This document shows, piece by piece, positions 36,385 through 55,260 of a stretch of 64,000 nucleotides of DNA. The notes beneath the pieces were generated by a model. The model made no database searches. It had not been told where the DNA came from and was given only the letters and a program-made list of their open reading frames with translations. The translations under genes were made by a program, and so were the position numbers. Location of the stretch: NCBI GenBank assembly GCA_028282805.1, contig JANQHD010000023.1, forward strand, positions 310,001 through 374,000, written 5' to 3'. The stretch comes from Phycisphaeraceae bacterium (GTDB lineage Bacteria; Planctomycetota; Phycisphaerae; Phycisphaerales; Zrk34). Positions within the stretch are counted from its first letter, which is position 1. Every line of letters starts with the position of its first letter.

Positions 36385-37059
36385 ATGAAGCGCATCTTTT
36401 CGGCATTCTGGCCCGCCCTGCTCTGCGTGGCGCTGGCGGCGGGCGTCTTCGCCCAGACCTTCAAATACCCCACGGCCGAGTCGTTCGAGCCCTACCACCA
36501 ACGGGTCGCCCAGGCCATGCGCTACTTCCCCGACAAGCTGGGCGACTGGGGCGACATGGAAGAGGCCCCGCTGAACTACAACGCCGAGGGCATCCTCAAC
36601 CCCAACGTCATGATCAGCCGCCTGTACTTCAACAAGAAGCTCGGCCAGTGGGTGCAGTTCATGTTCTACCAGTCCAAGAACGCCGAGCACATGCGCGGCC
36701 ACTACCCGCCGATCTGCTACGGCAACAGCGGCTACACCACGGTCGGCGCCCCCCAGCCCGGCGCTTGGCGCTGCGGCCGGCAGACCGTCAACGGCATGGA
36801 GTACACCTTCACCCGCAACGACAACACGCTGCTGGTCGCCAACTTCGTGATCCTGCCCGACGGGCGCATCGTGACCGACAACCGTGACCTGTCGGAGTTC
36901 GCCGCCAACCGGCGCCTGCGCTACTATGGCGCGGGGCAGGTGCAGATCGTCTTCTTCAGCGCCGCGATCCCCGTCGAAGACCGCATCGCCACCTACGAAC
37001 TGTTCCTCGCCGCCGCCGCCGACGCGATCGAGGTGATCCAATCAGGAGTCGAACGGTGA
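36385..37059 (+). CDS. epsI: EpsI family protein (exosortase-associated)
   Basis: 224 residues with an N-terminal signal or anchor (FWPALLCVALAAGVFAQ). The typical EpsI pattern is present: FPDKLGDWGDME, VMISRLYFNKKLGQWVQFMF, and HYPPICYGNSGYTTVG with the conserved His and Cys. EpsI proteins accompany exosortases, sometimes fused to them; their biochemical role is unsettled. ATG 36385 has GGAGGGCGG just upstream; ATG 36370, overlapping the exosortase stop, is the alternative. Confidence 0.88.
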   Translation: MKRIFSAFWPALLCVALAAGVFAQTFKYPTAESFEPYHQRVAQAMRYFPDKLGDWGDMEEAPLNYNAEGILNPNVMISRLYFNKKLGQWVQFMFYQSKNAEHMRGHYPPICYGNSGYTTVGAPQPGAWRCGRQTVNGMEYTFTRNDNTLLVANFVILPDGRIVTDNRDLSEFAANRRLRYYGAGQVQIVFFSAAIPVEDRIATYELFLAAAADAIEVIQSGVER

Positions 37060-39567: not shown

Positions 39568-40989
39568 ATGATCCAAAACGCTCAAGCCGACACCGACCGC
39601 TCGCAGTGGCCCACGATGTGGGGCCTGAACCCCGACCAGTTGCACGTGCGCTTCTGGGCGGCGCGCGGCGTACAGGTCGTCCGCCAGGGCGAACGGCCGG
39701 AGATCGTCGAAGACGCCGAGCTGTTCCTGCTGGTCGACCCGCGCACGATGACGATCTTCCGCCTGCGCCAGCTGATGGACCAGCTGACCTGGCTCAAGCC
39801 CGACCTGTTGCAGGTGCGCATCCGCGACAGCCGCGAGCCCGGTTACCGCGAGCACGCGATCAGCGACGACGACGGGCGGTTTAAGCGGTTCGAGCGCGAC
39901 TACGGCGTGGGCGACTCGCGGCTGACGCGCGTGGCGCTGACCCCGCACCGGCACATCGCCGAGGTCTGGCGCAGCGCCCCCAGCCCGCGCGACGGCTGGC
40001 GCCGGCTGCGCCGCGACATCCCCCACACCCGCCGCTCGGCGATGACCATCAGCGGCCGGGTCTACGACCAGCACGCCGATGGCCAGGTCGTGCAGTTCGT
40101 GCGCGACCTGGTGCAGGCGTGGCGTCGGCCGGACGCGACGATCGACCACGTCGACCGCCACGCCAACGGCGTGTGGGCGGGCAACGACGCGGTCGTGCCC
40201 CCCGGCGCACGGTTCATCGGCAACGTCTGGGTCGGCGCCGGCCGCACGGTCGACGAGCAGGTCAACATCGTCGGCCCCGCCGTGCTGTGGGACGACCCGG
40301 CGCACCGGCCGACCGTCGAAGAGGTGCGCTGGCGCGAGATCGAGCCGACGGAGGTGTTCGCCGCGCCGCTGTCGACGAAGCTGCGCTCGAACCTGCACCG
40401 CGCGGCCAAGCGCGCGTTCGACATCGTCTTCGCGAGCGTGGTGCTGGTGCTGACGCTGCCGCTGTACCCGCTGATCATGCTGGCGATCTGGCTGGAGGAC
40501 GGCCGGCCGTTCTTCTTCGCCCACGAGCGCGAGGCGATGGGCGGCGAGCCGTTCCCCTGCCTCAAGTTCCGCTCGATGCGCAAGGACGCCGACGCGATCA
40601 AACGCCGCCTGGAAGAGGAGAACCAGTCGGACGGCCCGCAGTTCTTCATCGAAGACGACCCGCGCATGACGCGCGTGGGCAAGGTGCTGCGCGCGTTGCA
40701 GCTCGACGAGCTGCCGCAGTTCCTCAACGTGCTGTTCGGCGACATGTCGGTGGTGGGCCCCCGGCCCAGCCCGTTCAAGGAAAACCAGTTCTGCCCCGCG
40801 TGGCGCGAGACGCGCCTCAGCGTGCGGCCGGGCGTCACGGGCCTGTGGCAGATCATGCGCACCCGTGAAGAGGGTTTGGACTTCCAAGAATGGATCCGCT
40901 ACGACATCGAATACGTCGAACGCGCCAGCTTTGCCCTGGACCTGTGGATCATCTGGAAAACGATCTTGCTCATCATCCGCTGGAGATAA
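39568..40989 (+). CDS. Polyprenyl-phosphate sugar phosphotransferase with N-terminal beta-helix-like region
   Basis: 473 residues. The last 200 are a complete bacterial sugar transferase: one membrane helix (RAFDIVFASVVLVLTLPLYP), KFRSMRKDAD, DPRMTRVGKVLR, LDELPQFLNVLFGDMSVVGP, RPGVTGLWQI. This enzyme class places the first sugar-1-phosphate on undecaprenyl phosphate. The first 270 residues are unusual and contain left-handed beta-helix turns (GARFIGNVWVGAGRTVDEQV) like those of nucleotidyltransferases, in place of the usual multi-helix or CoA-binding N-domain. It probably initiates the polymer built by the first block. Confidence 0.9.
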   Translation: MIQNAQADTDRSQWPTMWGLNPDQLHVRFWAARGVQVVRQGERPEIVEDAELFLLVDPRTMTIFRLRQLMDQLTWLKPDLLQVRIRDSREPGYREHAISDDDGRFKRFERDYGVGDSRLTRVALTPHRHIAEVWRSAPSPRDGWRRLRRDIPHTRRSAMTISGRVYDQHADGQVVQFVRDLVQAWRRPDATIDHVDRHANGVWAGNDAVVPPGARFIGNVWVGAGRTVDEQVNIVGPAVLWDDPAHRPTVEEVRWREIEPTEVFAAPLSTKLRSNLHRAAKRAFDIVFASVVLVLTLPLYPLIMLAIWLEDGRPFFFAHEREAMGGEPFPCLKFRSMRKDADAIKRRLEEENQSDGPQFFIEDDPRMTRVGKVLRALQLDELPQFLNVLFGDMSVVGPRPSPFKENQFCPAWRETRLSVRPGVTGLWQIMRTREEGLDFQEWIRYDIEYVERASFALDLWIIWKTILLIIRWR

Positions 40990-40995
40990 AGACGC

Positions 40996-43900
40996 ATGGT
41001 GGTTCGTGCAAAAACACGTAAGCGACTGGTGATCGTGCTGGTCACGGTCGTCCTGGTGGTCGGCCTGGTCACCGGGTACCTGGTCGCCAAGCGCAACAAG
41101 GCCGAGAAGAACCTGCAGCTCAGCCGCCAGGAGGGCATCGAGTACGCCCTCAACGGCGAGCACAACAAAGCGGTCAACAGGCTCGGCACCTACCTGACCG
41201 ACACGCGCAACAGCGACATCGTGGACGTCGAGGTGCTGCTGCTGTACGCCAAGGCGCGCGAGCACGTCGAGGACCGCGGCGACAACCACATCATCGACGC
41301 GATCAACAAGCTGCGCCAGGCCGTGCCCCACGACCCCGGCAACACGCAGGCGCGGCGCGACCTGGTGCGGCTGTACACCACCAGCGGCCGGTACAACACC
41401 GAGGCGATCGAGCTGGCCCGGAAGCTGCTCGACACCGACCCGGCCGACAGCGAGGCGTTGTGGGCGATGGCGGTGTGCAGCGCGCGCAAGCGCGAGTTCG
41501 CCGAGGCGATGAGCTACGCCGAGCGTTACACCCGGCTCAACGCCCTGTCGTTCCGGGGCCACCGCCTGACGCTGAACATCCTCCACCAGATCGACCGCCC
41601 GCGTGAGCAGATCGTCGCCTACGTCGAAGGCCTGCTGGCGAAGGAACCCGGCGAGCCGCGTTACCAGGTGATCGCCGCCTACGCCTACACGCTGCTCGAA
41701 GACAAGGCCAAGACCACCGAACACATCGACCGCGCGATCGAGACCATCGTGCCCGACAAGGACACCACCGGCGAGGCGTTCTACATCCTCCAGGAGCTGC
41801 ACCGATACGACGACGCCCGCGCCTACCTCGGCCGCGCGCTCAAGCAGGCCGAGACCGAGGGCCGGCCCGTCGACCGGAACCTCAAACGCCAGTACGTGGT
41901 CAGCCTCTGGGAAGCCAACCGCTACCACGACATGATCGAGCAGCTCAAGGACTACCGCTACTCCAACAAGGAGATCGACAGCCAGCTGCTCGCCCTGCGT
42001 GTGCTCGCGCTCAAGAGCATGGGCCGGGACGCGTCGGAAACCGAAGGCCCGATCACGGCGCTGAGCAAGCGGAAGGGCACCACCGCCGAGGCGTGGTCGA
42101 TCATCTTCGCCAGCGGCCTGATCGACGGGAAGCTCAAGCCCGCCCGCGCCGTGGAGGTCTGTCAACAGGCGGTGGGCGTCAACGAATACAACGCCTACCT
42201 GATCTGGATGCTGGGCAACGCGCACTACGCGGTGGGCGACACGGACCTGGCGCTGAACCGCTGGCTCCAGGCCGCGTCGTACCGGCGCGGCTGGCCGGCG
42301 CCGGCGGTGTCGATCTCGAAGCTGTTGCGCCAACGGCGGGAGTACGTCTTCGCCGCCCAGTGGGCCCAGAAAGCCTGCATGCGCGCGCAGACCAGCTACG
42401 ACGCGATCATCACCTACGCCGAGGCCTCTTCCGACCTGCTCGACCGCGCCGAGCCCGCGGCCATCGCCGACCTGCGCCGGCGGATCGAGATGGCGCGCAG
42501 CCAGGCGCCGTCCGAGGCGCGGCTGATCATGGTGTACGCCAAGGTGCTCGCGCACCAGGGCGACAAGGACCAGCTTGAGGTGCTGGTCGGCGAGGTGTTG
42601 AACATCAAGCCCTCCCCGCCGGCGGAGCTGCTGGTGAGGATGGCGGACATCAGCCGGGAGCGGGAGCTGGGCCTCGACCAGCCCTTGCTCGACCGCGCCC
42701 AGGCCGTCGCGCCCAACTCGCCGCAGGTCGCGCTGGCGCAGGCGATGTTCGCCGCGATACAGGGCGAGGTCGAAGACGGCCGGCAGATACTCGAGAACGC
42801 GCGCACCAACAGCAACGCGCCCGACTCGCCGGCGTGGCGGATCCACGCCATCCGTTACGAGGTGCTTCAGGGCAAGCGGGTCGACGCCGCGACGTGGGCG
42901 GCGCTGGCCGACGATTACGCCGAGGCGCTGGCGGTGCAGAAGCTGGTGCTCGACGAGCCGGGCGCCTGGCAGGACCGCGCGCTGATCGACCGGGTGATCG
43001 ACCGCCTGAAGGCTTTGACCGGCGAGCAGAGCGTCAGCTGGCGCATCTACCGCGCCCGCTGGCACATGCACAAGGGCGACGCCGTGTCGATCGCCGACGC
43101 CGTGAAGCTGTTGGAACACGTCATCAAGCAGTCGCCCAACCGGTTCGAGACGTACCTGTTGCTGGCGCGCTGCCTTCAGCTGCAGGACAAGACCTCCGGC
43201 GCGATCAAGGCGTACAGCGATGCGCTGACCCTGCGTCCCACCCACCTGACCACCAAGCTGGCGCTGGCGAACCTCCACCTGATCCAGAACGACCCGGGCA
43301 AGGCCGTCCAACTGATCAAGGAGATCGTCTCGGCGGAGAACGTCACCCCCACGGTGCTGCGCAGCGCCGCGCGGCTGGCCATGAACGCCGAGCGCACGGA
43401 CCTGAGCCTGCAGATCGTTCAGGCCGCCAAGGCCGCCGAGCCCGACAACGTCACCAACGACCTGTTGCTGGCCGGCGTCTACCGGTCCAAGGACCAGGAC
43501 GCCAAGGCCGAGGCGATCTACCGGCGACTGCTCGAGAAGCCCACGCCCGCGACGATCGAGCTGGTCAGCGATTACTACGCGTCGTCGGGGCGCATGGAAG
43601 AGGCGCGCGCGACCCTCGCCCGCCTCGAAGAGGCCGACGCCGCGCCCGACATGGCGGCGATCATCCGCGGCACGTTCGAGCTGACCTACGGCCAGACCGA
43701 CGCGGCGCTGGCCCAGTTCCAGGCCGCCGTCGACGCCGCGCCCGCCGCCGACTCGCACTGGGGCCTGCTCATCGGCCAACAGGTGCGCTTCGGTCGCCTC
43801 GACGCGGCGCTGGCCAGCCTCGACCGCGCCGCCGAGGCCTGCCCCACCAGCCCGTTGATCACCGAGGCGCACGCCAACCGCCCGCTGCTCGAGAAGCTCG

Positions 43901-45189
43901 GCCGGTACAACCTGTTCCGCTCGTTGCTCGTGAGCATGGTGTCGGACGCCAAGAACCAGGCGCCCGCCATCGAGGCGCTGAAGCTGCTGGAGAAGACCAC
44001 CGTCGAGCAGCTCTCGCAGGGCGAGGTCGAGGTGGCGATCCGCTCCATCGGCGCCCGTTACCCCAGCTACCTGCCGTTGCAGATGGTGACGGTCCACCTG
44101 GTCCGCCGGCAGGGCCGCGTGGAAGACGCCGCCGAGCTCGCCCGGCAGACCGCCCGGGCGTTCCCCGAGGCCTCCGAGCCCGCCGCCCTTGCCGCCGAGT
44201 TCTTCGCCACCGCCGGCCGGTGGCGCGAGGTGCTGGAGGTTTCCAGGGAATGGCGTCGCCGGATCACCCACGACCCGCTGCCCGCCGACCTGATGATGGC
44301 CCGCGCTTCGCTGATCCTCGATCGGCCGGAGGACGCGCTGCGCATGACCCGGCCCTACATCAAGATGGCCCTGGCCGACGCCGACACCTACGCCCAGCTC
44401 GTGCTCGCCCACTGCCACGCCCTGATCGCGCTCGAGCGCCAGGCCGAGGCCGAGAAGATGCTCAGCCCGAGGCTCGCCGAGTCTCAGCCGATCCGTTCGG
44501 TGTGGATGCAGCTGGCGTTGTTCGGTTTCGACGACGCCGACTCCGCCGGGGCCTGGCTGAAGCGGATCGAGCCGATCGTCGCGACCAAACCGGTCGAATA
44601 CGTCTCCCTCGCGCAGATGTACCGCGGCGTCGACGAGCGTTTCGGGATCGACGTCTACAAGGACCGCGCCACACAGATCCTCGAAACACTCGTCGCCGGC
44701 GACGACCCGCCGGTCGAAGCCGTCAAGGCCCTGGCGATGCTCGAGGACTTCCGCCGGAACAAGCCGCGCGCTATCGCGCTGTACCGGCGGGTGCTGGCCA
44801 TGGACGACCAGGACGCGCTGGCGATGAACAACCTGGCCATGCTGTTGCTCGAAGACGACCGTTCCGCCGAGGAGGCGTACGCGCTGGCGTCACGCGCCGC
44901 GGAGTTGGCGAGCAGCTCTCCCTCGTTGCAGGACACGCTTGCCCAAGCATTAAGCAAGCTCGGCCGGCACGACGAAGCGGTGCTCGCCATGCGCAAGGCC
45001 GTGCAGCTCGAACCGCGCAGCTTCGAGATGTGGGTCCGCCTCGGCCACATCTACCTCGACGCGGGAAACACCCAGGAAGCGACCGATATCCTCAAACGCC
45101 TCGAAGAAGAAGCCCTGACCAACGAGAACCTCGACATCAAGCTCCGCCAGAGCATCAACGGCCTGCGAACCCGCCTGATTTCCGGGTGA
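40996..45189 (+). CDS. Giant TPR protein of the EPS/exosortase system (PrsT-like)
   Basis: 1397 residues: a short cytoplasmic start, one membrane helix at about 10-32 (LVIVLVTVVLVVGLVTGYLV), then a long array of tetratricopeptide repeats to the end (for example ALNGEHNKAVNRLGTYL, ALALYRRVL-type units such as RAIALYRRVLAMDDQDALAM). Long TPR proteins called PrsT accompany PEP-CTERM loci in proteobacteria and probably organise export in the periplasm. It starts six bases after the sugar transferase and ends the operon; a terminator follows at 45286. Confidence 0.87.
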   Translation: MVVRAKTRKRLVIVLVTVVLVVGLVTGYLVAKRNKAEKNLQLSRQEGIEYALNGEHNKAVNRLGTYLTDTRNSDIVDVEVLLLYAKAREHVEDRGDNHIIDAINKLRQAVPHDPGNTQARRDLVRLYTTSGRYNTEAIELARKLLDTDPADSEALWAMAVCSARKREFAEAMSYAERYTRLNALSFRGHRLTLNILHQIDRPREQIVAYVEGLLAKEPGEPRYQVIAAYAYTLLEDKAKTTEHIDRAIETIVPDKDTTGEAFYILQELHRYDDARAYLGRALKQAETEGRPVDRNLKRQYVVSLWEANRYHDMIEQLKDYRYSNKEIDSQLLALRVLALKSMGRDASETEGPITALSKRKGTTAEAWSIIFASGLIDGKLKPARAVEVCQQAVGVNEYNAYLIWMLGNAHYAVGDTDLALNRWLQAASYRRGWPAPAVSISKLLRQRREYVFAAQWAQKACMRAQTSYDAIITYAEASSDLLDRAEPAAIADLRRRIEMARSQAPSEARLIMVYAKVLAHQGDKDQLEVLVGEVLNIKPSPPAELLVRMADISRERELGLDQPLLDRAQAVAPNSPQVALAQAMFAAIQGEVEDGRQILENARTNSNAPDSPAWRIHAIRYEVLQGKRVDAATWAALADDYAEALAVQKLVLDEPGAWQDRALIDRVIDRLKALTGEQSVSWRIYRARWHMHKGDAVSIADAVKLLEHVIKQSPNRFETYLLLARCLQLQDKTSGAIKAYSDALTLRPTHLTTKLALANLHLIQNDPGKAVQLIKEIVSAENVTPTVLRSAARLAMNAERTDLSLQIVQAAKAAEPDNVTNDLLLAGVYRSKDQDAKAEAIYRRLLEKPTPATIELVSDYYASSGRMEEARATLARLEEADAAPDMAAIIRGTFELTYGQTDAALAQFQAAVDAAPAADSHWGLLIGQQVRFGRLDAALASLDRAAEACPTSPLITEAHANRPLLEKLGRYNLFRSLLVSMVSDAKNQAPAIEALKLLEKTTVEQLSQGEVEVAIRSIGARYPSYLPLQMVTVHLVRRQGRVEDAAELARQTARAFPEASEPAALAAEFFATAGRWREVLEVSREWRRRITHDPLPADLMMARASLILDRPEDALRMTRPYIKMALADADTYAQLVLAHCHALIALERQAEAEKMLSPRLAESQPIRSVWMQLALFGFDDADSAGAWLKRIEPIVATKPVEYVSLAQMYRGVDERFGIDVYKDRATQILETLVAGDDPPVEAVKALAMLEDFRRNKPRAIALYRRVLAMDDQDALAMNNLAMLLLEDDRSAEEAYALASRAAELASSSPSLQDTLAQALSKLGRHDEAVLAMRKAVQLEPRSFEMWVRLGHIYLDAGNTQEATDILKRLEEEALTNENLDIKLRQSINGLRTRLISG

Positions 45190-45488: not shown

Positions 45489-45668
45489 AGCGGATCACAG
45501 ATGAACGGGTTGGGTGCAATCGCTACCGTTCATATGGAAACGACGAAACGTTCAGCCGGTTCAGGCATCAACGCCTGGGCGTCGGGCTGGTGAGCGGCCG
45601 CGAGTTGCTCGGGAACAAGTTCGAACGGAGTACGGGTCATTTTACCGCCCGCTTTTAGGAGAAACGTG

Positions 45669-46613
45669 ATGGTTGGGAAGCTCGGTAAGTTCGCTTTTGG
45701 TGCTGCGTTCGCAGCTGTTGCCGCCTTCGGCGCCTCCGCCGGGGCTACCACGATCAATCAGGCGCTGGCCGACGTCCAGGGCCAGACCGGCGTGTCCGGT
45801 CCGATCACTTTTAACTTCAACGACCTTTCGGTTGCCGACTACTTCGACCTCGACAGTTCCGGCACGGTCACCCCCGGTGACGTGGTGCTCGGTGCGGTCG
45901 TGATCGACGAGGTCGTCAGCTCCGACGGGCTCGGCGGCACGGCTGCCGTGACCGATGTGTCCGGCATCTACGCCCTTGAGGTCGCCGGCACCACGCCCGT
46001 CGGCCCTCCCGGCCCCGCGGGCACGCCGATCAACGCGTCGTTCATCCCGATCACGCCCGGCGCCGATGCCGCCGTCGGTGGCCTGACCGGCACCGCCCCC
46101 TCGACCCTCCTCGCCCCCGGTGAGATGTTCGCGGTCTTCCAGGGCGGCGTTTCGACCGACCCCAACGTGATCCCCGCCTCCGGCTCGTTCTACGCGGGCG
46201 CGTTCACCGACGGTGACAAGTACGCCACGCTGGCACCGACCGTCGGCTACACGATCAACTTCATCGGCGACACGCTCGCCGCGCTCGCGGGCTTGACCCC
46301 CGGCAGCACCATCGGCACCATCCTCGCGCCCTCGGGCCAGGACGTGATCGATGGCGGCCTGGGCGACGGTGGCCAGGGCATCGCCCAACTGCCGCTGAGC
46401 CCGATCGGCGCGTTCGGCTCCGACGTGGACCTGACCGGCTCGATCCTGACCTCGGCCGGCCCCAGCGCTTTGCCCGGCGCCGCGGCGACCTTCTCGGACA
46501 CCGCGACGTTCCAGATCACGGCCGTCGCCGTGCCGCTGCCGCCCGCCGTCCTGGCCGGCATCCCGCTGCTCGGCTTCGTGGTCCGTCGCACCATCAAGAA
46601 GAAGAACGCCTAA
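45669..46613 (+). CDS. VPLPPA-CTERM secreted protein, copy 1
   Basis: 314 residues, ATG 45669 with AGGAG at 45657. A signal peptide runs to about residue 25 (FAAVAAFGASAGA). Residues 57-71 (DYFDLDSSGTVTPGD) form a calcium-loop-like stretch, D60-x-D62-x-S64...D71, like EF-hand or dockerin loops. The C-terminus is a tripartite sorting signal: VPLPPAVLAGIPLLGFVV then RRTIKKK. It is expected to be exported, cut by the exosortase and attached at the surface. The core is nearly identical to the next gene. A strong terminator follows. Confidence 0.85.
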   Translation: MVGKLGKFAFGAAFAAVAAFGASAGATTINQALADVQGQTGVSGPITFNFNDLSVADYFDLDSSGTVTPGDVVLGAVVIDEVVSSDGLGGTAAVTDVSGIYALEVAGTTPVGPPGPAGTPINASFIPITPGADAAVGGLTGTAPSTLLAPGEMFAVFQGGVSTDPNVIPASGSFYAGAFTDGDKYATLAPTVGYTINFIGDTLAALAGLTPGSTIGTILAPSGQDVIDGGLGDGGQGIAQLPLSPIGAFGSDVDLTGSILTSAGPSALPGAAATFSDTATFQITAVAVPLPPAVLAGIPLLGFVVRRTIKKKNA

Positions 46614-46778: not shown

Positions 46779-47008
46779 CGGGGATTTATCGGGCGGTGGT
46801 ATTCTTATACCCGTTGCACAGGGTTGGGTGACCACGTCTTTTTGGTGCAACGCCGAACGCACAATTCCGCACACGCGCTTATGCCGTGAGCGGAGAAGAG
46901 ATGAATGTTGTGTCGTGTCACGTCAGCAAGTGAGGAGCAACGCAAGCAACGAACGAGCGTCGGGTTGGGGGAGAACCGTTCCACCCCGCCGCTCAAAGGA
47001 GAAAAGTG

Positions 47009-47953
47009 ATGGTTGGGAAACTCGCAAAACTCACGGTCGGCTTGTCATTCTGTTTCGTCATGTGCATCGGCACTTCCGCCTATGCGGTGACCATCAATCA
47101 GGCGCTGGTCTCGGTCCAAGCGCAGACTGGAGTCGCCGGCCCCGTTACCTTTGAGTTCAACGACCTTTCGGTCGCCGACTACTTCGACCTCGACAGCTCC
47201 GGCACCGTCACCCCCGGTGACGTGGTGCTCGGCGCGTTCGTCGTCGATGAGATCGTTTCGTCCAACGGGCTCGGAGGCACGGCGCCGCTGACCGACGTGT
47301 CCGGCGTCTACGCCCTCGAAGTCGCCGGGACGACCCCCGTCGGCCCTCCCGGCCCCGCGGGCACGCCGATCAACGCGTCGTTCATCCCGATCACGCCCGG
47401 CGCCGATGCCGCCGTCGGCTTCCTGACCGGCACCGCCCCCTCGACGCTCCTCGCCCCCGGCGAGATGTTCGCCGTGTACCAGGGCGGCGTTTCGACAAAC
47501 CCGAACCTGATCCCGGCCTCCGGCTCGTTCTACGCGGGCGCGTTCACCGACGGTGACAAGTACGCCACGCTGACGCCGACCGTGGGCTACACGATCAACT
47601 TCATCGGCGACACGCTCGCGGCACTCGCCGGCCTCACGCCGGGCAGCACCATCGGCACCATCCTCGCGCCTTCGGGCCAGGACGTGGTCGCCGGCGGCCT
47701 CGGTGACGGCGGCGAAGGCATCGGCCAGCTGCCGCTGAGCCCGATCGGCGCGTTCGGCTCCGACGTGGACCTGACCGGTTCGATCCTGACCTCGGCCGGC
47801 CCCAGCGCTTTGCCCGGCGCCGCGGCGACCTTCTCGGACACCGCGACGTTCCAGATCACGGCCGTTGCCGTGCCGCTGCCGCCCGCGCTGCTCGCCGGCA
47901 TCCCGCTGCTCGGCTTCGTGGTCGCGCGCACGGTCCGCAGGCACAACGCCTGA
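47009..47953 (+). CDS. VPLPPA-CTERM secreted protein, copy 2
   Basis: 314 residues, the same length as copy 1. AAGGAG lies just before GTG-ATG at 47006-47011. The signal peptide differs most from copy 1 (LTVGLSFCFVMCIGTSAYA), whereas the middle and C-terminal halves are almost the same, including the calcium-loop-like D-L-D-S-S-G-T-V-T-P-G-D and the VPLPPALLAGIPLLGFVV sorting signal with a RTVRRHNA end. Likely a recent tandem duplication whose promoter and signal peptide have diverged. Own terminator at 48006. Confidence 0.85.
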   Translation: MVGKLAKLTVGLSFCFVMCIGTSAYAVTINQALVSVQAQTGVAGPVTFEFNDLSVADYFDLDSSGTVTPGDVVLGAFVVDEIVSSNGLGGTAPLTDVSGVYALEVAGTTPVGPPGPAGTPINASFIPITPGADAAVGFLTGTAPSTLLAPGEMFAVYQGGVSTNPNLIPASGSFYAGAFTDGDKYATLTPTVGYTINFIGDTLAALAGLTPGSTIGTILAPSGQDVVAGGLGDGGEGIGQLPLSPIGAFGSDVDLTGSILTSAGPSALPGAAATFSDTATFQITAVAVPLPPALLAGIPLLGFVVARTVRRHNA

Positions 47954-48096: not shown

Positions 48097-48960
48097 TTAA
48101 ATCAGTTTTGTTCGTAACCCGCCGAGGCGGAAGAAGCGGCGCATGGCGGCCAGGTCGCGCGCCGCGTCGGCGCTGAGTTCGGCCTTGCGCCGCGCCAGCT
48201 CCGCGACGACCGGTTGGTGGTCGCCGGCGAAGCGGTCGGCGGACTTGATCGCCACGAGGAACGCGACGGGGAACATGCGGAACAACTTCGCGCGCGTGCG
48301 CAACGGGCCCATCGCGTCTTCCAGCTCGCCGGGCGTGTAAGCGGCGCGCAACGAGTTGAGGTAGTCGGTGGTGAAGTGCCTGGGCTGGCGGTCTTCGTAC
48401 ATCAGCGCAAAGTAGCGCATGGTTTCGACGCGTCGGAGCCGACCGAAGTCGCCGAGGTACAACCCGCCGCCGGGCTTGAGCAACCGGTGGGCTTCGCGCA
48501 TGGCGCGGGTGAGCAGGTCGGCGGTGGGCAGGTGGTGCAGCGACATCGCCGAGACGATCGCGTCGAAGCCGTGGTCGGGCTCTTCGAGGTCGGTGATGTC
48601 GCCGCGCTGGAAGGTGACGTTGGTCAGGCCGAGCTTTTGGGCGTGCGTTTGGGCGCGTTCGAGCATCTGCTGCGAGAGGTCGACGCCGACGAACTGCGCA
48701 TCGGGTCGCAGCGACGCGAGGTGCGCCAGTTGCACGGCGGGCCCGCACGCCAGGTCGAGCACGCGGTCGCCGGGCGCGATGACGGTGCAGGCTTGGGCGG
48801 TGTGGAACAGGTGCGTGGGCGCCATGACTTCGGCGCCGGCGTCGGCGTAGTCGCGGACCTGGTCGTCGTCGACCATGGCCATCGACGGCTCGGGCAGGCG
48901 GTCGGTCGCCTGTCGCCGGGGCGTGCACAGTTCCTTGATGATCAGTTTCGGGATCGTCAT
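48097..48960 (-). CDS. Class I SAM-dependent methyltransferase of the FeeM island
   Basis: 287 residues. SAM motif RVLDLACGPAVQLAHLASLR, acidic loop FVGVDLSQQMLERAQTHA, then FDAIVSAMSLHHLPTADLLT and RLLKPGGGLYLGDFGRL: Methyltransf_25 type. C-terminal 90 residues are alpha-helical with FRMFPVAFLVAIKSADRFAG. It starts 23 bases after the FeeM-like gene on the same strand, so they are probably one transcript. A small-molecule or acyl-amino-acid substrate is an inference from this placement. Confidence 0.8.
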   Translation of the reverse strand: MTIPKLIIKELCTPRRQATDRLPEPSMAMVDDDQVRDYADAGAEVMAPTHLFHTAQACTVIAPGDRVLDLACGPAVQLAHLASLRPDAQFVGVDLSQQMLERAQTHAQKLGLTNVTFQRGDITDLEEPDHGFDAIVSAMSLHHLPTADLLTRAMREAHRLLKPGGGLYLGDFGRLRRVETMRYFALMYEDRQPRHFTTDYLNSLRAAYTPGELEDAMGPLRTRAKLFRMFPVAFLVAIKSADRFAGDHQPVVAELARRKAELSADAARDLAAMRRFFRLGGLRTKLI

Positions 48961-48983
48961 ATCGAACAGGGCGGGTGCGGGCG

Positions 48984-49742
48984 TCAGGCGGCGCTGACGG
49001 AGTGGGCGTCGGTGCTTTGCTGGGTCAGGTACTGTTCGAGGCTGGTGCCCGCGAGTTGTTTGCCGGTGAGGTCGAAGCGATCGTCGAAGTACTCGGGGGC
49101 GATGGTGTTGTTGACGAGGTAGCGCAGGCCGCGCGGCAGCTTGTCTTGCGTCGTGGCCGTGGCCCAGTCGATGCGCAGCAGCACGACGGGGTTGTCCTTG
49201 ACGGTGGCGTAGGCCTTGACGGGCCCGACCTGGTCGAAGCCGAGCAGCCGGGTGTAGAAGTTGGCGTGGTGGGGGTGGACGCCGATGACGCCGTCGGTCG
49301 CGCCGCAGGCCAGCGCGAAGTAGGTGGCGTGGCGGATCATCTCGAGCAGCGCTTCGATGGAGCGGAAGAGGTGTTCGCGCCGGTCGGCGAAGAGGCCGAA
49401 CTCCGCGAGGCGTCGGCCTTCGGTGCGCATCTGCTGGAGCTCGTTTTCGTAGACGGTGTCGAGCGGCAGGCCGGTCTCGCAGTCGGCGTAGGCGCTGAGG
49501 GTGGAGACGGTCATGCCGCCGATGTTGCCGAAGATGACGGCGGTCTTTTTCTGGATGGTCTGGGAGACGGTGTGGAGCTTGAACTTGTTGGGTGGGATGA
49601 GCCCGGCGCGCAGGTAGGCGCGGTAGACGAGCGACCAGGCCGTCTCGACCTGTTCGTACGTCTTGGCGATCTCGAACGTCAGGCCGGCTTGGGCGTCCGG
49701 CTCGGCGTCCTTCTCGCGCGGGGGATGGTTGCCCTGGGTCAT
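48984..49742 (-). CDS. FeeM-like N-acyl amino acid synthase, copy 2
   Basis: 252 residues from ATG at 49742, which has GAAGGG five bases upstream; a start at 49799 is also open. Pattern of the FeeM/exosortase-associated acyltransferase group (GNAT fold related to autoinducer synthases): TAWSLVYRAYLRAGLIPPNK, GLPLDTVYENELQQMRTEGR, RLAEFGLFADR, VIGVHPHHANFYTRLLGFD and NPVVLLRIDW. Such enzymes join an acyl chain from acyl-ACP to an amino acid, tyrosine in FeeM. Related to the gene at 49884. Confidence 0.78.
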   Translation of the reverse strand: MTQGNHPPREKDAEPDAQAGLTFEIAKTYEQVETAWSLVYRAYLRAGLIPPNKFKLHTVSQTIQKKTAVIFGNIGGMTVSTLSAYADCETGLPLDTVYENELQQMRTEGRRLAEFGLFADRREHLFRSIEALLEMIRHATYFALACGATDGVIGVHPHHANFYTRLLGFDQVGPVKAYATVKDNPVVLLRIDWATATTQDKLPRGLRYLVNNTIAPEYFDDRFDLTGKQLAGTSLEQYLTQQSTDAHSVSAA

Positions 49743-49883
49743 TGTCGCCCTTCGGGTTAGCAAAACCGTTGATCTGACACGATTCATATCGAACCGCAAC
49801 CCTTTGTGCTTTAGGGAGCAATTGCGTTTTGTCGCGCAGGTGTCGTAGATCGCGCACGACCGATAACGCCTCGCGTCGGGGGA

Positions 49884-50693
49884 TCAGGCGGCCGGGGCGG
49901 CGGTGGCCCGCACGACGGGGCACTCGACGAACCGCTCGACGGGGGTGCCGGCGATCGCGGCCTTGTGGAAGCGGAAACGCCGGGCGAACTGCTCGGCGTC
50001 CATCGCGTGATCGATCAGGTACTTCAGCCCGCGCGGGACCGCGCGGCGGGCGGTGGCCTTGGCCCAGTCGATGCGCAGCAGCACCACGGGGTGGTGGCGG
50101 ACGGTGGGGTAGGCCAACTCGGGCCCGGCGACCTCGAAGCCGAGCAGCCGGGTGTAGAAGCCGACGTGTCGGGGGTGGACGCCGATGATGCCGTCGGTCG
50201 CGCCGCAGTGGCGGATGAAGTGGGTGACGTGGCGGATCAGCTCGAACACCGCGCTGACCGGTCGGCTGTTGCAGTTGCGGTGCTGGGCGAACAGGCCGAT
50301 CTCACCGAGGGTTCGCCCGTTGCGGCGCATGGCGTCGAGCTGCTTGGCGTAGACCGAGTCGAGGGGCAGGCCTTGCTCGCCGTCCATGTACGCGCTCATG
50401 GTGTAGGCGGTGGTGGGGCCGACCTTTCCGGTGATGACGACGGACCGGTCCTGCAGCGCGTGGGGCACGGTGTGCAGCGCGGCGCTGTTGGGGGGGATGA
50501 GGCCTTCGTGGAGGTAGGTCGCGTAGACCAGCGACCAGGCGGCGTCGACCTGCTGGTAGGCCTCGGCGACGGCGAAGCGGATGCCGTCGTCGGCAGCGGG
50601 GGTGTGATTGCGCCAGAGTCGGGCGATCGGGTTGCGCGGGGCGACGGCGCGGTGATCCCCCGCAAACCCGGGCTTCCATCCGTAAACAATCAT
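49884..50693 (-). CDS. FeeM-like N-acyl amino acid synthase, copy 1
   Basis: 269 residues from ATG at 50693 with AGGAG ten bases before it. The same marks as its neighbour: AAWSLVYATYLHEGLIPPNS, GLPLDSVYAKQLDAMRRNGR, EIGLFAQHR, IIGVHPRHVGFYTRLLGFEV and HPVVLLRIDWAKA. Clear divergence from the other copy suggests two acyl or amino acid specificities. It is the first gene of the minus-strand unit and lies back to back with the flavoprotein gene. Confidence 0.78.
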   Translation of the reverse strand: MIVYGWKPGFAGDHRAVAPRNPIARLWRNHTPAADDGIRFAVAEAYQQVDAAWSLVYATYLHEGLIPPNSAALHTVPHALQDRSVVITGKVGPTTAYTMSAYMDGEQGLPLDSVYAKQLDAMRRNGRTLGEIGLFAQHRNCNSRPVSAVFELIRHVTHFIRHCGATDGIIGVHPRHVGFYTRLLGFEVAGPELAYPTVRHHPVVLLRIDWAKATARRAVPRGLKYLIDHAMDAEQFARRFRFHKAAIAGTPVERFVECPVVRATAAPAA

Positions 50694-50821
50694 GGGTCGG
50701 TAACTCCTGGGCAACTCGGGCGGGGGGTGGTTAATCCACCGGGGGGTATTGACCGATAAAAAGCTGGTGGCCTGGGGGGCGGTGGCGCGGGTCGGTGTGG
50801 GCTGGGCGAAGCTGAAGGACC

Positions 50822-52429
50822 ATGGACCAAAACACGGATCAACTGGGTAGCGCTATCGAGGCCTTCAAGGCGGTCGTGGGTCAGCCGCACGTGCTGAGCG
50901 ACGACGCGTCCTTGAGTCGCTACGCGCTGAGCACCGGGCCTGCCGGTACCCGCCCCGCAGCGGTTGTTCGCCCGGAAGCCAGCGAACAGGTTCAGCGGAT
51001 CGTGAGGATTGCGGGCCAGTATCGCGTCCGTCTTTACCCTATCAGCCGTGGGTATAACTTCGGCTATGGGGATGCTTGTGCTCCAACCGACGGCCAGGTG
51101 ATCGTCGATCTGGGACGGATGGACCGCATCATCGAGGTCAACCGCGAGCTGCATTATTGCGTTATCGGACCGGGGGTCAAGCAGGGCCAATTAGCCGATT
51201 ATCTGGCCAAAAACGCCCCCGAGCTCGTGCTCGACTGCACCGGGGCCGGCCGCGACGCTTCTTTGGTCGGTAATACCCTGGACAGGGGATTCGGTCACAC
51301 CCCCTACGGCGACCACTTCCTGCACACCTGCGGCATGAAGGTCGTCCTCGCCGACGGCACCGAGCTGAACACCGGCTTCGGGGCCTTCGACGGCGCACGC
51401 TCGGGGCGGGTCTACCGCTACGGCGTCGGGCCGTTCCTCGACGGCATCTTCTGCCAGAGCAACTTCGGCATCGTCACCGAGATCGGCCTGTGGCTCATGC
51501 CGCGACCCGAGGCGTTCAGCGCGTTCTTCTTCAGCGTCGACGACGAGGCGCAGCTCGAAGCCATCATCGACCGCCTCGCGCCGTTACGCCGCAGCGGCTT
51601 GCTGCGCTCTGCGATCCACATCGCCAACGACCTGCGCGTGGTCAGCTCCAAAACGCAATACCCGTGGGACCGCGCGGGCGGCGCCACGCCGCTGCCCGAT
51701 GCGCTGCGCAAGCAGCTCCGCCGCGAGCACGGCGTCGGCCTGTGGATGGGCGCCGGCTCCATCGAAGGCTCGCGCGGCTTGGTCAAACAGATCAAACGCG
51801 AACTCAAACGCGCCCTAAAACCCGTGCGCATCACGTTCATGGACGAACGCCGATACGCCTTGGCGCAAAGGCTCGTGGGCCTGCTCAACCGCTTCGGTTT
51901 GGCGCGCGGGCTGACCGGTCAGCTGCGCGCCCTGCGCCCGGTGCTCGACCTCATGCAGGGCACCCCCACCGACGAACCGCTCGCCGGCGTGCGCTGGCGC
52001 TTGCGCGGAAACCTCGACGAAGCGCAGCTCGACCCCCGCCTGTGCGGCGCCGGGCTGATGTGGGCCTCGCCCGTACTGCCCATGACCGGCCACGATGCGC
52101 GGCGAGTCATGCAAACCATCGAGCCCATCTTCGCCGCGCACGGCTTCGAGTGCCCGATCACCTTCACGATGATCAACGAGCGCGCCATGATCGGTATCAC
52201 CAACGTGTTCTTCGACCGGCGCGACGAAGACGAAACCGCCCGCGCCGCCGCCTGCTACGACCAGCTCGTGCAAAGCCTGATCGACGCCGGCTACCCGCCT
52301 TACCGCACCGGGCCCGGCGGGTTCGCCAAGCTGCACGCCCCGGCCGAGGCGTTCTGGCGCGTCGCCGGCCGCCTCAAGCACGCCCTCGACCCCGAACAGA
52401 TCCTCAGCCCCGGCCGATACCTGCCTTAA
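50822..52429 (+). CDS. FAD-dependent oxidase, 4-cresol dehydrogenase / vanillyl-alcohol oxidase family
   Basis: 535 residues. FAD-binding PCMH domain at the N-terminus (RPAAVVRPEASEQVQRIVRI, PISRGYNFGYGDACAPTDGQ, then VGNTLDRGFGHTPYGDHFLH and GMKVVLADGTELNTGFGAFD), a pattern close to p-cresol methylhydroxylase flavoprotein and vanillyl-alcohol oxidase. The cap domain ends in PYRTGPGGFAKLHAP and DPEQILSPGRYLP. These enzymes oxidise para-alkyl phenols. Divergent from the FeeM-like operon by 128 bp, so shared control is likely and an acyl-tyrosine-like substrate is conceivable. Confidence 0.85.
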   Translation: MDQNTDQLGSAIEAFKAVVGQPHVLSDDASLSRYALSTGPAGTRPAAVVRPEASEQVQRIVRIAGQYRVRLYPISRGYNFGYGDACAPTDGQVIVDLGRMDRIIEVNRELHYCVIGPGVKQGQLADYLAKNAPELVLDCTGAGRDASLVGNTLDRGFGHTPYGDHFLHTCGMKVVLADGTELNTGFGAFDGARSGRVYRYGVGPFLDGIFCQSNFGIVTEIGLWLMPRPEAFSAFFFSVDDEAQLEAIIDRLAPLRRSGLLRSAIHIANDLRVVSSKTQYPWDRAGGATPLPDALRKQLRREHGVGLWMGAGSIEGSRGLVKQIKRELKRALKPVRITFMDERRYALAQRLVGLLNRFGLARGLTGQLRALRPVLDLMQGTPTDEPLAGVRWRLRGNLDEAQLDPRLCGAGLMWASPVLPMTGHDARRVMQTIEPIFAAHGFECPITFTMINERAMIGITNVFFDRRDEDETARAAACYDQLVQSLIDAGYPPYRTGPGGFAKLHAPAEAFWRVAGRLKHALDPEQILSPGRYLP

Positions 52430-52975: not shown

Positions 52976-53722
52976 ATGATTCGTAAGTCGCAAATCCGAG
53001 CGAGCGTTTTGATCGTGGCGGTGATCGCCGCGCTCGGCTTCTCGTCGACGGTCTTTGCCGCCGGCGAAACCTACCGCTTCCACCTCCAGCAGCTCGAGCT
53101 CAACGCCAACCCGACGATCCCCATGGCCTTCATCGGCGACGTCGTCGATTACACCGGCACCATCTCCGCGGTCGGCACCTCCAACTCCACGCTCACCACC
53201 ATGCTCGTGCCGGGCACGGACTTCGGCTTCGTCAGCTCCTCGACCTCCATCCCCGCCGGCTACTCGATCAACAACCTGTCGATCAGCGCCACGCTCGCCA
53301 GCGGCATCGTCCAATCCGGCGCCCTCAACTTCGAGATCATGAACGGCTCGGGCACCGAAGCGTTCAACGCCTCGCTCCTGCTCGGCAGCGGCGACCTGAA
53401 CCTCGACCTGCTCAACAGCGGTGCCAACAAGAAGACCTACCTGCTCGACGCAGACATCACCGACATCACCTTCAGCGATCCGACGTTCCTCGGCCTGCCC
53501 GTGCCCGGTCAAGGGCCCGCCGGCCTGGTCGGCTCGCTGTTCCAGTTCCGTTTCATGGTCACCGACGGCCAGTACCCCGTCGCCGCCGAAGCGAAGGTCG
53601 ACGTCACGCAGTCGCCGCCCCCGCCGCCGACCGTGCCCCTGCCGTCCGCCGCCCTCGCCGGCAGCGCGATCCTCGGGCTCATGGGCGTCGTCCACTTCCG
53701 CCGACGCAGGCGGATCGATTGA
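52976..53722 (+). CDS. VPLPSA-CTERM secreted protein
   Basis: 248 residues; GGAG lies nine bases before ATG 52976. Signal peptide to about residue 29 (VLIVAVIAALGFSSTVFAAG). A beta-rich Ser/Thr/Asn-rich body follows, then a proline linker (SPPPPPTVPLPSAAL) and the sorting end AGSAILGLMGVVHFRRRRR. An exosortase substrate with the same VPLP type motif as the two paralogs at 45669 and 47009 but an unrelated body. Function of the body unknown. Confidence 0.85.
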   Translation: MIRKSQIRASVLIVAVIAALGFSSTVFAAGETYRFHLQQLELNANPTIPMAFIGDVVDYTGTISAVGTSNSTLTTMLVPGTDFGFVSSSTSIPAGYSINNLSISATLASGIVQSGALNFEIMNGSGTEAFNASLLLGSGDLNLDLLNSGANKKTYLLDADITDITFSDPTFLGLPVPGQGPAGLVGSLFQFRFMVTDGQYPVAAEAKVDVTQSPPPPPTVPLPSAALAGSAILGLMGVVHFRRRRRID

Positions 53723-53900: not shown

Positions 53901-54569
53901 ATGGAGAGTTCGCGGAAGAGATGTGTTTGTGCTATCGCTATTGCAGCGCTTTTCGGGGCACTGACATTCAGCACACCCGCTGCCCACGCGGCGATGATCG
54001 ACACCACGGTTAACTCGCCGGTCGTCATGGTCGTCGACGGTGCCGATGCGCCCAGCGCCTTTAGCGCCAACCACACCGGCAAGATCATGTTCTCGCTGCC
54101 CGCCGGCGGCTTGATGACCGTGGCGCGCGACGGCGGCACGCCCGACTTCTTCACCACCGTCGACATGCCCCTGTGGAGTTCCATCACCGGCGAGATCGTC
54201 TTCAACAACGGCGATATCGTCTCCGGCAACCTCGTGATCGGCATCGGCAACGGCGACACCGAAACCGTCACCGTGCTGCCCACCGGCAACATCATCGAAG
54301 AGACCAACGGCTTTATCATCATCGCCGACGTCACCGGCTTCTTTAACGACGCCGCGTTCAACACCGTCGACACCACCGGCTTTACCACGCCCCGGCCCGG
54401 CACGCTTACGCTCTCGGCCTTCGCGCCCGGCGCCGACCCGCAGGACCAGGAGAACTACGGCAAGAGCTTCTCCAGCGAGCTCGACATCCAGCTCGTGCCC
54501 GAGCCCGCGTCGCTGGCGCTGCTCGCCCTCGGCGGCCTGGCGATGGGTCTCCGCCGACGCCGCGCCTGA
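53901..54569 (+). CDS. PEP-CTERM secreted protein (VPEP type)
   Basis: 222 residues; GGGAGGAG lies shortly before ATG 53901. Signal peptide to about residue 31 (AIAIAALFGALTFSTPAAHA). The body is beta-rich (for example MFSLPAGGLMTVARDGG). The end is a canonical sorting signal: VPEPASLALLALGGLAMG then LRRRRA. Same exosortase presumably handles it. Terminator at 54607. Confidence 0.9.
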   Translation: MESSRKRCVCAIAIAALFGALTFSTPAAHAAMIDTTVNSPVVMVVDGADAPSAFSANHTGKIMFSLPAGGLMTVARDGGTPDFFTTVDMPLWSSITGEIVFNNGDIVSGNLVIGIGNGDTETVTVLPTGNIIEETNGFIIIADVTGFFNDAAFNTVDTTGFTTPRPGTLTLSAFAPGADPQDQENYGKSFSSELDIQLVPEPASLALLALGGLAMGLRRRRA

Positions 54570-54639: not shown

Positions 54640-54706
54640 GCCCGGGCCGAGACGGCCGGGCTCGCTGTCATACCGATGAGCGAGCCCGGCCGTCCACGGC
54701 CCGGGC
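54640..54706. repeat. REP-like palindromic pair (REPIN-like doublet)
   Basis: A GC-rich element at 54640-54665 (GCCCGGGCCG...CCGGGCTCGC) and its near-perfect reverse complement at 54680-54706 (GCGAGCCCGG...GGCCCGGGC) face each other across 14 bases. A third copy, identical to the second over 27 bases, follows the transposase gene at 55268. Confidence 0.8.
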
Positions 54707-54750
54707 CTTCGTACTGGACGAGCCGCGTTGCGGCCCGTAGCCTCTTCCGC

Positions 54751-55260
54751 ATGTCCGGGCTCACGACATGGCATATCACCTGGGGCACCTACGGCACGCG
54801 ATTGCACGGCGGTGATCGGCCGACCGTCGATCGCCGTCACAACCAGCGCGGCCAGGCGTTTATCGCGTTTGACCCGCCGCGTTACGAGCGTTGTGTTCAA
54901 CAAATGAAGTTTCCGCCGGTGCTGCTGGACGATGCTCAGCGTGTGCTGATCGAACGCGCGCTGCCGTCGCTGTGCGAGCGAGGCGGCTGGCTATTGCGTG
55001 AATGGGCGGCGCAGCCCGATCACGTTCACGTGCTGGCCGACGTCCGCAAAGACGTGCACGGTGAAAAGGTTCGTCGGCTGCTCAAGCGTTGGCTCACGCA
55101 AGCGCTCAACGCCCAGTGGGAGCCCGGGTCGGGACGACCGGGCTCGCTGCCCGAGGGCGGCCGATGGTGGGCGGAACAGGGTTCCAACCGTGTGGTCGAC
55201 GACGAGCATTACTTACGCAACTGCATCGACTACATCCGCAGACAACACACCACGGTGTGA
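54751..55260 (+). CDS. REP-associated tyrosine transposase (RAYT, Y1 family)
   Basis: 169 residues from ATG 54751. The opening GLTTWHITWGTYGTRLHGGD is typical of this group. The HUH metal site is QPDHVHVLADV, and the C-terminal Tyr in YLRNCIDYIRRQH is the likely nucleophile. RAYT proteins cut and join single-stranded REP hairpins. REP-like copies lie on both sides (54640, 54680, 55268) and one related inverted repeat lies inside the gene at 55121-55144. The longer frame from 54676 runs through the upstream REP and is not used. Confidence 0.9.
   Translation: MSGLTTWHITWGTYGTRLHGGDRPTVDRRHNQRGQAFIAFDPPRYERCVQQMKFPPVLLDDAQRVLIERALPSLCERGGWLLREWAAQPDHVHVLADVRKDVHGEKVRRLLKRWLTQALNAQWEPGSGRPGSLPEGGRWWAEQGSNRVVDDEHYLRNCIDYIRRQHTTV
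55121..55144. repeat. REP-like inverted repeat within the transposase gene
   Basis: AGCCCGG and CCGGGCT separated by ten bases, followed by CGC as in the flanking REP copies. It encodes the Gly/Pro-rich EPGSGRPGSL stretch between conserved parts of the transposase. Confidence 0.6.

Follow-up and report, generated by a model that had tools for sequence, protein, structure and literature searches.

What small molecule is made by a set of acyltransferase, methyltransferase and oxidase genes embedded among exosortase substrates, and does it take part in protein sorting? The set examined here lies in a 64,000-nucleotide stretch of a Phycisphaeraceae genome (the window). It is enclosed by two pairs of CTERM protein genes and comprises two N-acyl amino acid synthase (NAS) genes of the FeeM type, a methyltransferase gene (MT) and, divergently oriented, a gene for a VAO/PCMH-type flavoenzyme (VAO). 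A preliminary description had proposed this island, and every piece was found in the window sequence where it had been placed and in the family to which it had been assigned.

That description also held that the product of exosortase-linked acyltransferases is not known. This is too strong: NAS loci are known to yield N-acyl tyrosines and N-acyl dehydrotyrosines, and some of these loci adjoin PEP-CTERM genes according to excerpts of the reports (PMC7293339, PMC12479983). Genetic linkage of NAS genes to PEP-CTERM/exosortase is credited by citing papers to Craig, Cherry and Brady (2011), and the window island, with its NAS genes near exosortase and CTERM genes, resembles their loci. In Methylomonas LW13, an exosortase-linked NAS is among three genes whose mutants, in the accessible text, "did not form the" wild-type band (PMC11072679). 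The stieleriacine, thalassotalic acid and kyonggic acid loci, as excerpted, consist of NasY with ThiF and nitroreductase genes, some with an MT (PMC12479983, PMC7293339, PMC7378531). FeeM-kind NAS (two genes in the window), an MT and the planctomycete phylum are common to the window island and stieleriacine-type loci, and the PEP-CTERM/EPS neighbours recall the Stieleria maiorica NAS locus. In place of ThiF plus nitroreductase, however, the window island has a VAO/PCMH-type flavoenzyme. The TyzABC acyl-oxazolone pathway differs in the same way: N-acyl-tyrosine produced by TyzA is desaturated by the nitroreductase-superfamily enzyme TyzC (PMC10404671, as excerpted) and cyclised by the ThiF protein TyzB, and the island has neither enzyme.

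A VAO-type enzyme standing where other loci have ThiF/nitroreductase is the new part. Searches, with subscription literature mostly outside their scope, found no paper linking exosortase or N-acyl tyrosine with vanillyl alcohol oxidase, or N-acyl amino acids with 4-cresol dehydrogenase, and wider queries gave no linking paper among the matches listed. The new VAO subfamily of 2026 consists of fungal enzymes in the accessible text (PMC12909556).

Organization of the island

The genes of the island and its surroundings are collected in Table 1. MT, the last gene after FeeM_a, is separated from it by 23 bp, and 108 bp lie between FeeM_b and the divergent VAO gene. CT1 and CT2 are 87% identical. 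The VPLPP/VPLPS-type tails of CT1-CT3 were recognised by eye, and no curated CTERM model scored them above its cut-off; homologues of CT3 and CT4 occupy equivalent positions in genome G001. The exosortase gene lies inside an EPS cluster about 13-13.7 kb upstream of the island, and the TPR-repeat protein takes the position that PrsT has in Oxalobacteraceae loci.

Table 1. Features of the island and the adjoining exosortase/EPS region, in window coordinates
Feature	Position	Strand	Basis
Exosortase	35384..36370	+	TIGR02602 106.7 bits, cut-off 105.55; PF09721 3.2e-39
Chain-length/tyrosine autokinase-like protein, EPS cluster	37056..39536	+	TIGR01007/TIGR03018 partial matches; syntenic in G001
EPS polyprenyl glycosylphosphotransferase	39568..40989	+	TIGR03025 9.1e-74; PF02397
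TPR-repeat protein	40996..45189	+	TPR families; 35% identity to syntenic G001 gene
CT1, CTERM protein, VPLPPA-type tail	45666..46613	+	sequence
CT2, CTERM protein, VPLPPA-type tail	47006..47953	+	sequence
MT, class I SAM methyltransferase, rare subfamily	48097..48960	-	Pfam Methyltransf_31/25, 1.6e-26
FeeM_a, N-acyl amino acid synthase	48984..49739	-	PF21926 FeeM 8.9e-38
FeeM_b, paralogous N-acyl amino acid synthase	49884..50714	-	PF21926 1.1e-36
VAO/PCMH-type 4-phenol flavoenzyme	50822..52429	+	PF01565 1.1e-26; Tyr82, Tyr494, Arg495 triad
CT3, CTERM protein, VPLPSA-type tail	52976..53722	+	MYXO-CTERM model 0.0056, under cut-off
CT4, PEP-CTERM protein	53901..54569	+	TIGR02595 27.6 bits, cut-off 16

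The synthases and the flavoenzyme

FeeM_a and FeeM_b are paralogues with 50% identity that score 130 and 126.4 bits on PF21926 (curated cut-off 27). FeeM_a also matches the FeeM structure 2g0b in sequence (1.4e-10), and its AlphaFold model (pLDDT 92.5) superposes on 2g0b with TM values of 0.77-0.82, normalised to 2g0b, six chains of which top the structural ranking. Both genes are assigned to the FeeM-type synthases by family, and FeeM_a by its predicted fold too. Loss of the residues for binding acyl-ACP and amino acid, which would have spoken against the initial proposal, does not show at the level of fold, to which the comparison of FeeM_a with 2g0b is confined. Tyrosine is the predicted substrate of both enzymes.

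The closest solved proteins to the VAO product are 4-cresol dehydrogenase, eugenol oxidase (EUGO) and vanillyl-alcohol dehydrogenase. It has the PCMH-type FAD domain (PF01565) and the VAO fold; its AlphaFold model (pLDDT 89.7) gives TM values of 0.84-0.87 to p-cresol methylhydroxylase (1dii) and EUGO, and of 0.83-0.87, normalised to query length, once vanillyl-alcohol oxidase is included. The fold and the Tyr-Tyr-Arg phenol triad are common to the window enzyme, p-cresol methylhydroxylase, EUGO and vanillyl-alcohol oxidase, although identity to these three is only about 30%. In an alignment of 84 VAO sequences, Tyr82 is kept in all 83 that contain the region and Tyr494-Arg495 in all 84. EUGO binds phenols with the same three residues and can dehydrogenate raspberry ketone, according to an excerpt (PMC5089669).

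Unlike these three enzymes, the window enzyme has neither the covalent-FAD histidine nor the aspartate base near the benzylic carbon at the aligned positions, and the other VAO copies likewise lack both there. The residue aligned with the histidine of VAO/EUGO is Leu412, and none of the 84 copies has His there; the position of the Asp170/Asp151 base is a glycine in a T-G-A-G loop. Asp145, a few residues past that glycine, is not invariant across copies. Because both residues are absent at the aligned positions, the activity may differ from that of characterised enzymes. The context differs as well: lipid biosynthesis here, lignin or cresol catabolism for the characterised 4-phenol enzymes. No signal peptide was seen by eye in the VAO protein, which is therefore expected in the same compartment as FeeM.

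Linkage of FeeM and VAO across genomes

Of 84 VAO loci, 33 have a FeeM gene close to VAO. In planctomycetes the two are divergent within 422 bp (eight loci, the layout of Phycisphaerae) or convergent (one). In 21 Oxalobacteraceae-type loci they are co-directional and adjacent, a tight pair often with PEP-CTERM and PrsT nearby, and in three loci they are more loosely placed. That the pair returns, similarly flanked, in further genera and phyla goes beyond chance. The FeeM-VAO association is real, and the functional coupling that the preliminary description had supposed gains support from this linkage, other phyla included. In the VAO tree, FeeM linkage is clustered and requires eight changes, at least five of them forced by well-supported branches, and in the FeeM tree deep branches part the groups that are paired with VAO. 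Both trees are quick runs with SH-aLRT support only, and the VAO tree excludes L107 and L113, of which one is a short contig and the other has a truncated gene.

FeeM is absent from the remaining 51 of the 84 loci, and in most Hydrogenedentota with VAO neither FeeM nor TIGR03694 was found genome-wide; both observations were counted against a joint pathway. VAO might instead serve the exosortase/EPS locus in another way, acting on a phenolic group of the polysaccharide or of another metabolite, with FeeM only a frequent neighbour. Besides the FeeM-less loci, this reading can draw on the counts above cut-off in VAO genomes, where exosortase (38/50) exceeds FeeM (21/50); among VAO genomes of other groups, 40 of 50 have an exosortase match, a raw count uncorrected for background. 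It is harder to reconcile with the closeness of FeeM at 33 loci in differing layouts, and with PEP-CTERM or PrsT, which occur at 22 of 33 FeeM-linked VAO loci against 7 of the 51 without FeeM (two of these seven tails look spurious). The latter difference indicates that VAO tracks FeeM and not the exosortase locus as such, and we regard the alternative role as rather improbable. CTERM tails were detected by a regular expression, whose strict version picked out 38 ORFs where shuffled tails would give 1.2, at least two of the matches (L076, L086) looking spurious.

Exchange with ThiF/nitroreductase genes

Further MT or FeeM loci have, where VAO would stand, ThiF/nitroreductase genes of the TyzB/TyzC type, the system published for N-acyl-tyrosine desaturation. 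They occur at five MT loci (among 12, the count leaving out L121 and covering L120 only by the NF011424 search), at one FeeM locus without VAO and at none of the 84 VAO loci. None of the loci searched contains both systems; genome G101 holds both at separate loci. The window locus has no ThiF or nitroreductase gene, and NF011424 at 1e-10 gave no match in the window genome (G000, 99.8% complete) or in G001. A PF00881 search for nitroreductase near FeeM missed a fused copy in G017, so the ThiF/nitroreductase profiles were relied on instead. The best reading is that VAO would be an analogous replacement of the nitroreductase, and exchange of the slot with a desaturase points to the same reaction.

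The methyltransferase

Absence of the MT from 13 relative loci had suggested a chance neighbour, an explanation dropped in view of two Nitrosospira-type genomes that carry a VAO-MT-CTERM-FeeM cassette. Aligned end to end, the window MT and its counterpart in the Nitrosospira cassette share 44% identity. The subfamily is rare (2/392 planctomycetes, 3/101 Nitrosospira relatives, 8/369 of that class), and in 9 of 12 MT loci there is an NAS gene, a gene of the VAO or ThiF/nitroreductase type, or both. The MT is linked to the pathway and, as first described, belongs to the island. NCBIfam and solved structures gave no useful hint of its substrate.

Relation to exosortase and sorting

Conservation of the island with exosortase, on which the initial proposal depended, was found: G001 and G057 retain the gene order exosortase-TPR-FeeM-VAO, and in 4 of 12 FeeM genomes a FeeM gene sits no more than 20 kb from an exosortase, where 0.32 would be expected (P 0.00016, simulation). 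Exosortase presence was judged by PF09721, because a home-made profile was weak (four matches in loci). Within the host order exosortase is universal, and its genome-wide presence was discarded as support for the VAO link.

The suggested role of the product as a sorting lipid anchor did not find support in this comparison. A lipid anchor or cofactor for exosortase-mediated sorting would suit G000, G001 and G057, where the genes are syntenic with exosortase and CTERM substrate genes. Yet all 61 relatives have exosortase, 12 have FeeM and 49 have exosortase without FeeM, so that sorting does not generally need FeeM; we consider such a role extremely improbable. On this comparison, exosortase loci may or may not carry acyl-tyrosine chemistry, which would stand outside sorting.

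Proposed pathway

Given the established gene families, fold, phenol-binding residues, recurrent linkage and slot exchange, we infer a substrate, reaction, product and role for the cassette. FeeM_a and FeeM_b would place a fatty acyl chain on the amino group of tyrosine. VAO would hold the para-phenol as phenolate through Tyr82, Tyr494 and Arg495 and transfer the benzylic hydride to FAD, yielding a p-quinone methide that would most likely become N-acyl-2,3-dehydrotyrosine, probably the VAO product, or alternatively add water to give a beta-hydroxy product. The MT would then methylate the ring, phenol or carboxylate. VAO would thus substitute for the ThiF/nitroreductase (TyzB/TyzC-like) desaturation module, and the cassette, travelling with exosortase/EPS loci, would make a secreted surface-active or signalling biofilm lipid outside the sorting machinery. 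To the whole, a cassette for a modified N-acyl tyrosine acylated by FeeM, oxidised by VAO and methylated by MT, we give an even chance.

Hydroxylation of the beta carbon, giving N-acyl-beta-hydroxytyrosine or, on over-oxidation, a ketone on which the MT would act, appears unlikely. In VAO/EUGO the quinone methide is usually hydrated, some substrates being desaturated instead, according to an excerpt (PMC5089669), and the accessible text on Massilia umbonata reports no dehydro compound (PMC12479983); the slot exchange with a nitroreductase desaturase, however, suggests desaturation. An ordinary stieleriacine-like N-acyl tyrosine cluster, with VAO a phenol catabolism or detoxification gene carried by chance, is very unlikely: planctomycete NAS genes beside EPS and PEP-CTERM genes are already known from the portion available (PMC7293339), but VAO-FeeM and VAO-MT adjacency repeats in other phyla.

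The FeeM-VAO pair of Pseudoduganella umbonata CECT 7753 (L085) counts most strongly against the desaturation pathway, given the products of Massilia umbonata, for which the accessible text reports only saturated kyonggic acids (PMC12479983). The two names denote the same species, and CECT 7753 has no strong ThiF/nitroreductase match. We take this strain to be the one used in the kyonggic acid work; its FeeM-VAO pair may be silent or make another product.

More tentatively, and short of an even chance, this VAO/PCMH branch may bind FAD non-covalently and be an undescribed, dedicated N-acyl-tyrosine desaturase or beta-hydroxylase that replaced ThiF/nitroreductase more than once (Planctomycetota, Betaproteobacteria) and defines exosortase-linked oxidised tyrosine lipids.

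Implications

The 61-genome comparison argues for this chemistry as an optional accompaniment of exosortase loci and against a part in sorting. If VAO acts on the FeeM product, the product class can be named: a phenolic, hence tyrosine-derived, oxidised lipid. If the proposal is true, it would provide a second, mechanistically different enzyme for dehydrotyrosine lipids. The window organism is known here from its genome alone, and cultured carriers offer an alternative. Because unrelated bacteria carry the cassette too, beside genes for protein sorting and slime, the product of such loci can be sought in cultured strains, and the question becomes testable in Rugamonas rubra, Pseudoduganella umbonata, Massilia species and Nitrosospira sp. 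Nsp11.

Organization of the island and its surroundings

The preliminary description had recognized two FeeM-type N-acyl amino acid synthase (NAS) genes, a methyltransferase (MT) gene and a VAO/PCMH-type flavoenzyme (VAO) gene between pairs of CTERM genes, and this arrangement was confirmed in full. The genome (G000; 3.9 Mb, 99.8% complete) has a Phycisphaeraceae MAG as its nearest island-bearing relative and carries a second exosortase elsewhere.

Features of the window
Feature	Coordinates	Strand	Remarks
DltB-like membrane O-acyltransferase	11041-12456		part of EPS cluster
Exosortase	35384-36370		within EPS cluster upstream of island
Wzc-like chain-length/kinase protein	37056-39536		NF053729, residues 584-636
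CTERM gene	45666-46613		flanks island
CTERM gene	47006-47953		flanks island
MT (METHYLTRANSFERASE)	48097-48960	-	23 bp from FeeM_a
FeeM_a	48984-49739	-	PF21926
FeeM_b	49884-50714	-	PF21926; 108 bp from VAO
VAO	50822-52429	+	divergent from FeeM_b
CTERM gene	52976-53722		flanks island
CTERM gene	53901-54569		flanks island
REP-associated/IS200-like Y1 transposase-type gene	54676-55260		below curated cut-offs

The upstream EPS cluster includes glycosyltransferases, an ABC exporter, a sugar transferase, a large TPR protein and the chain-length/kinase protein, whose match to an MshE-type c-di-GMP-binding motif (57.4 bits, cut-off 38) suggests direct c-di-GMP control of EPS export. The first two CTERM genes encode 315-aa products with 87% mutual identity, highest past the signal peptide region, and represent a fairly recent tandem duplication. 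The transposase-type gene directly follows the second CTERM pair.

Enzyme families

PF21926 recognizes both FeeM proteins at 126-130 bits (cut-off 27), and the first six structural matches of the FeeM_a model (mean pLDDT 92.5) are all chains of the solved FeeM, 2g0b. In sequence, the flavoenzyme is related to p-cresol methylhydroxylase, eugenol oxidase and vanillyl-alcohol dehydrogenases, and its model (mean pLDDT 89.7) matches the same families in structure. It was aligned within a set of 84 VAO sequences, window included, comprising the best 80 of 192 relatives from an alignment-based scan plus four further loci. Tyr91, Tyr471 and Arg472 are described as phenol-binding residues of eugenol oxidase (PMC5089669). 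Within the best-80-plus-four set, Tyr82 is kept in all 83 sequences covering the region and Tyr494-Arg495 in 84/84; because the Tyr-Tyr-Arg residues are retained, a para-substituted phenol is the expected substrate. None of the 84 sequences has a His at the position aligned with the covalent-FAD His, so FAD is probably bound non-covalently, and no Asp occupies the position aligned with Asp151/Asp170 of characterized enzymes.

Linkage of FeeM and VAO

A FeeM gene lies within the fetched stretch in 33 of the 84 VAO loci (best 80 of 192 plus four). The two genes are adjacent and co-directional in 21 Oxalobacteraceae-type loci, divergent in eight planctomycete loci and convergent in one (mostly Phycisphaerae), and more loosely arranged in three, Nitrosospira among them; some over-called start codons in these layouts produce apparent overlaps. 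In Oxalobacteraceae, the pair is flanked by a PEP-CTERM gene and a PrsT gene (TIGR02917, 785 bits in Pseudoduganella umbonata CECT 7753), with an XrtA chain-length gene further out. A genome of the window genus (G001) preserves the whole series from exosortase through kinase, sugar transferase, TPR, CTERM, FeeM and VAO to two further CTERM genes, and G057 preserves exosortase, TPR, CTERM, FeeM, VAO. Mapped onto the VAO tree, FeeM linkage requires 8 changes against a shuffled mean of 26, and well-supported branches force at least five of them. On the FeeM tree, most planctomycete FeeMs split deeply from proteobacterial ones, and VAO-paired members occur on both sides. The pairing is either old or of more than one origin, and either points to function.

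FeeM is absent from the fetched stretch in the other 51 of the 84 loci (same best-80-plus-four set), mainly Hydrogenedentota, and most of these genomes have neither FeeM nor TIGR03694, that is, no recognized NAS. Enzymes of this VAO branch may therefore act on other substrates.

The methyltransferase subfamily

MT was found in 0/13 relative loci and at first looked lineage-specific, a view ruled out by Nitrosospira VAO loci that carry it. In the first set of loci compared, a single protein resembles it closely over its full length (44% identity), encoded in the VAO locus of Nitrosospira sp. Nsp11. That locus, like L120 from a relative, groups VAO, MT, a PEP-CTERM gene and FeeM into a single cassette. 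The subfamily is rare: 2/392 planctomycetes (one weak), 3/101 Nitrosospira relatives and, at 1e-30, 8/369 genomes of the Nitrosospira class.

Twelve MT loci were inspected (window, L084, L120, L121, L131-L138). Three contain both VAO and FeeM, and five (L131-L135) contain ThiF or ThiF-nitroreductase genes, the TyzB/TyzC-type module of the published N-acyl-tyrosine desaturation system; L134 also has FeeM and L135 two TIGR03694 acyltransferases. In L138, a weak MT relative, FeeM is accompanied by a nitroreductase-like ORF. Neither partner set was seen in L121, L136 and L137, two of which are short stretches; the ThiF profile covered all of the 12 loci but L121, with L120 covered by the genome-wide search only. 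A PF00891 O-methyltransferase near VAO in Methylococcaceae (L074:11885-12931) and Nitrosospira (L084:11898-13082) suits a phenolic product.

Proposed exchange of the oxidative module

The ThiF-nitroreductase profile matched none of the 84 VAO loci (best 80 of 192 plus four); it matched the five MT loci and, in planctomycetes, one FeeM locus that lacks VAO (L023). A genome-wide search at 1e-10 gave no match in G000 or G001; of the 44 genomes it covered, 40 contain at least a MoeB/ThiF-like match. In one clade of the FeeM tree, the sister of VAO-linked proteobacterial proteins is the ThiF-linked protein of L134. NCBIfam NF011425, a 989-position 'hypothetical protein' family, matches FeeM_a over its first fifth and ThiF-nitroreductase proteins over positions 313-796; it appears to be a natural FeeM-ThiF-nitroreductase fusion, a Rosetta-stone protein of the pathway.

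Nitrosospira sp. Nsp11 (G101; L084, 21.6 kb) has two unlike NAS loci: on contig C10, some 7 kb separates a FeeM gene from a ThiF-nitroreductase fusion gene, and on C23 a further FeeM accompanies VAO and MT. One genome may thus hold both systems at separate loci.

On this comparative pattern, the simplest reading is that VAO would carry out the oxidative step on N-acyl tyrosine, replacing the nitroreductase. The chemistry agrees: eugenol oxidase is described as forming the alkene from raspberry ketone, which is a para-phenol whose side chain is activated (PMC5089669). The best evidence against VAO-catalyzed desaturation comes from Massilia umbonata, for which PMC12479983 reports only saturated kyonggic acids (NAS-locus lipids); P. 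umbonata, by name the same species, has the FeeM-VAO pair and only weak ThiF matches. Its genome contains three FeeM genes, so the reported lipids may stem from another FeeM.

Relation to exosortase and proposed role

Exosortase is universal among 61 relatives, FeeM occurs in 12, and FeeM lies within 20 kb of exosortase in four of these 12 against 0.32 expected (simulation, P 0.00016; conservative owing to contig breaks). The cassette therefore prefers exosortase/EPS loci and is not needed for sorting, which argues against the earlier suggestion of a sorting lipid anchor. In Methylomonas sp. LW13, mutants disrupted in any of three genes, an exosortase-linked NAS among them, are described as forming no band in a polysaccharide experiment (PMC11072679), a result that suits a biofilm-associated lipid.

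The proposed acylation, oxidation and methylation of a tyrosine-like phenol is largely borne out by the comparative evidence. The island resembles known NAS-desaturase-methyltransferase clusters overall but differs in the desaturase slot; judged from its genes, it would be a variant of these clusters, with the VAO-type oxidase in that slot as the new part.
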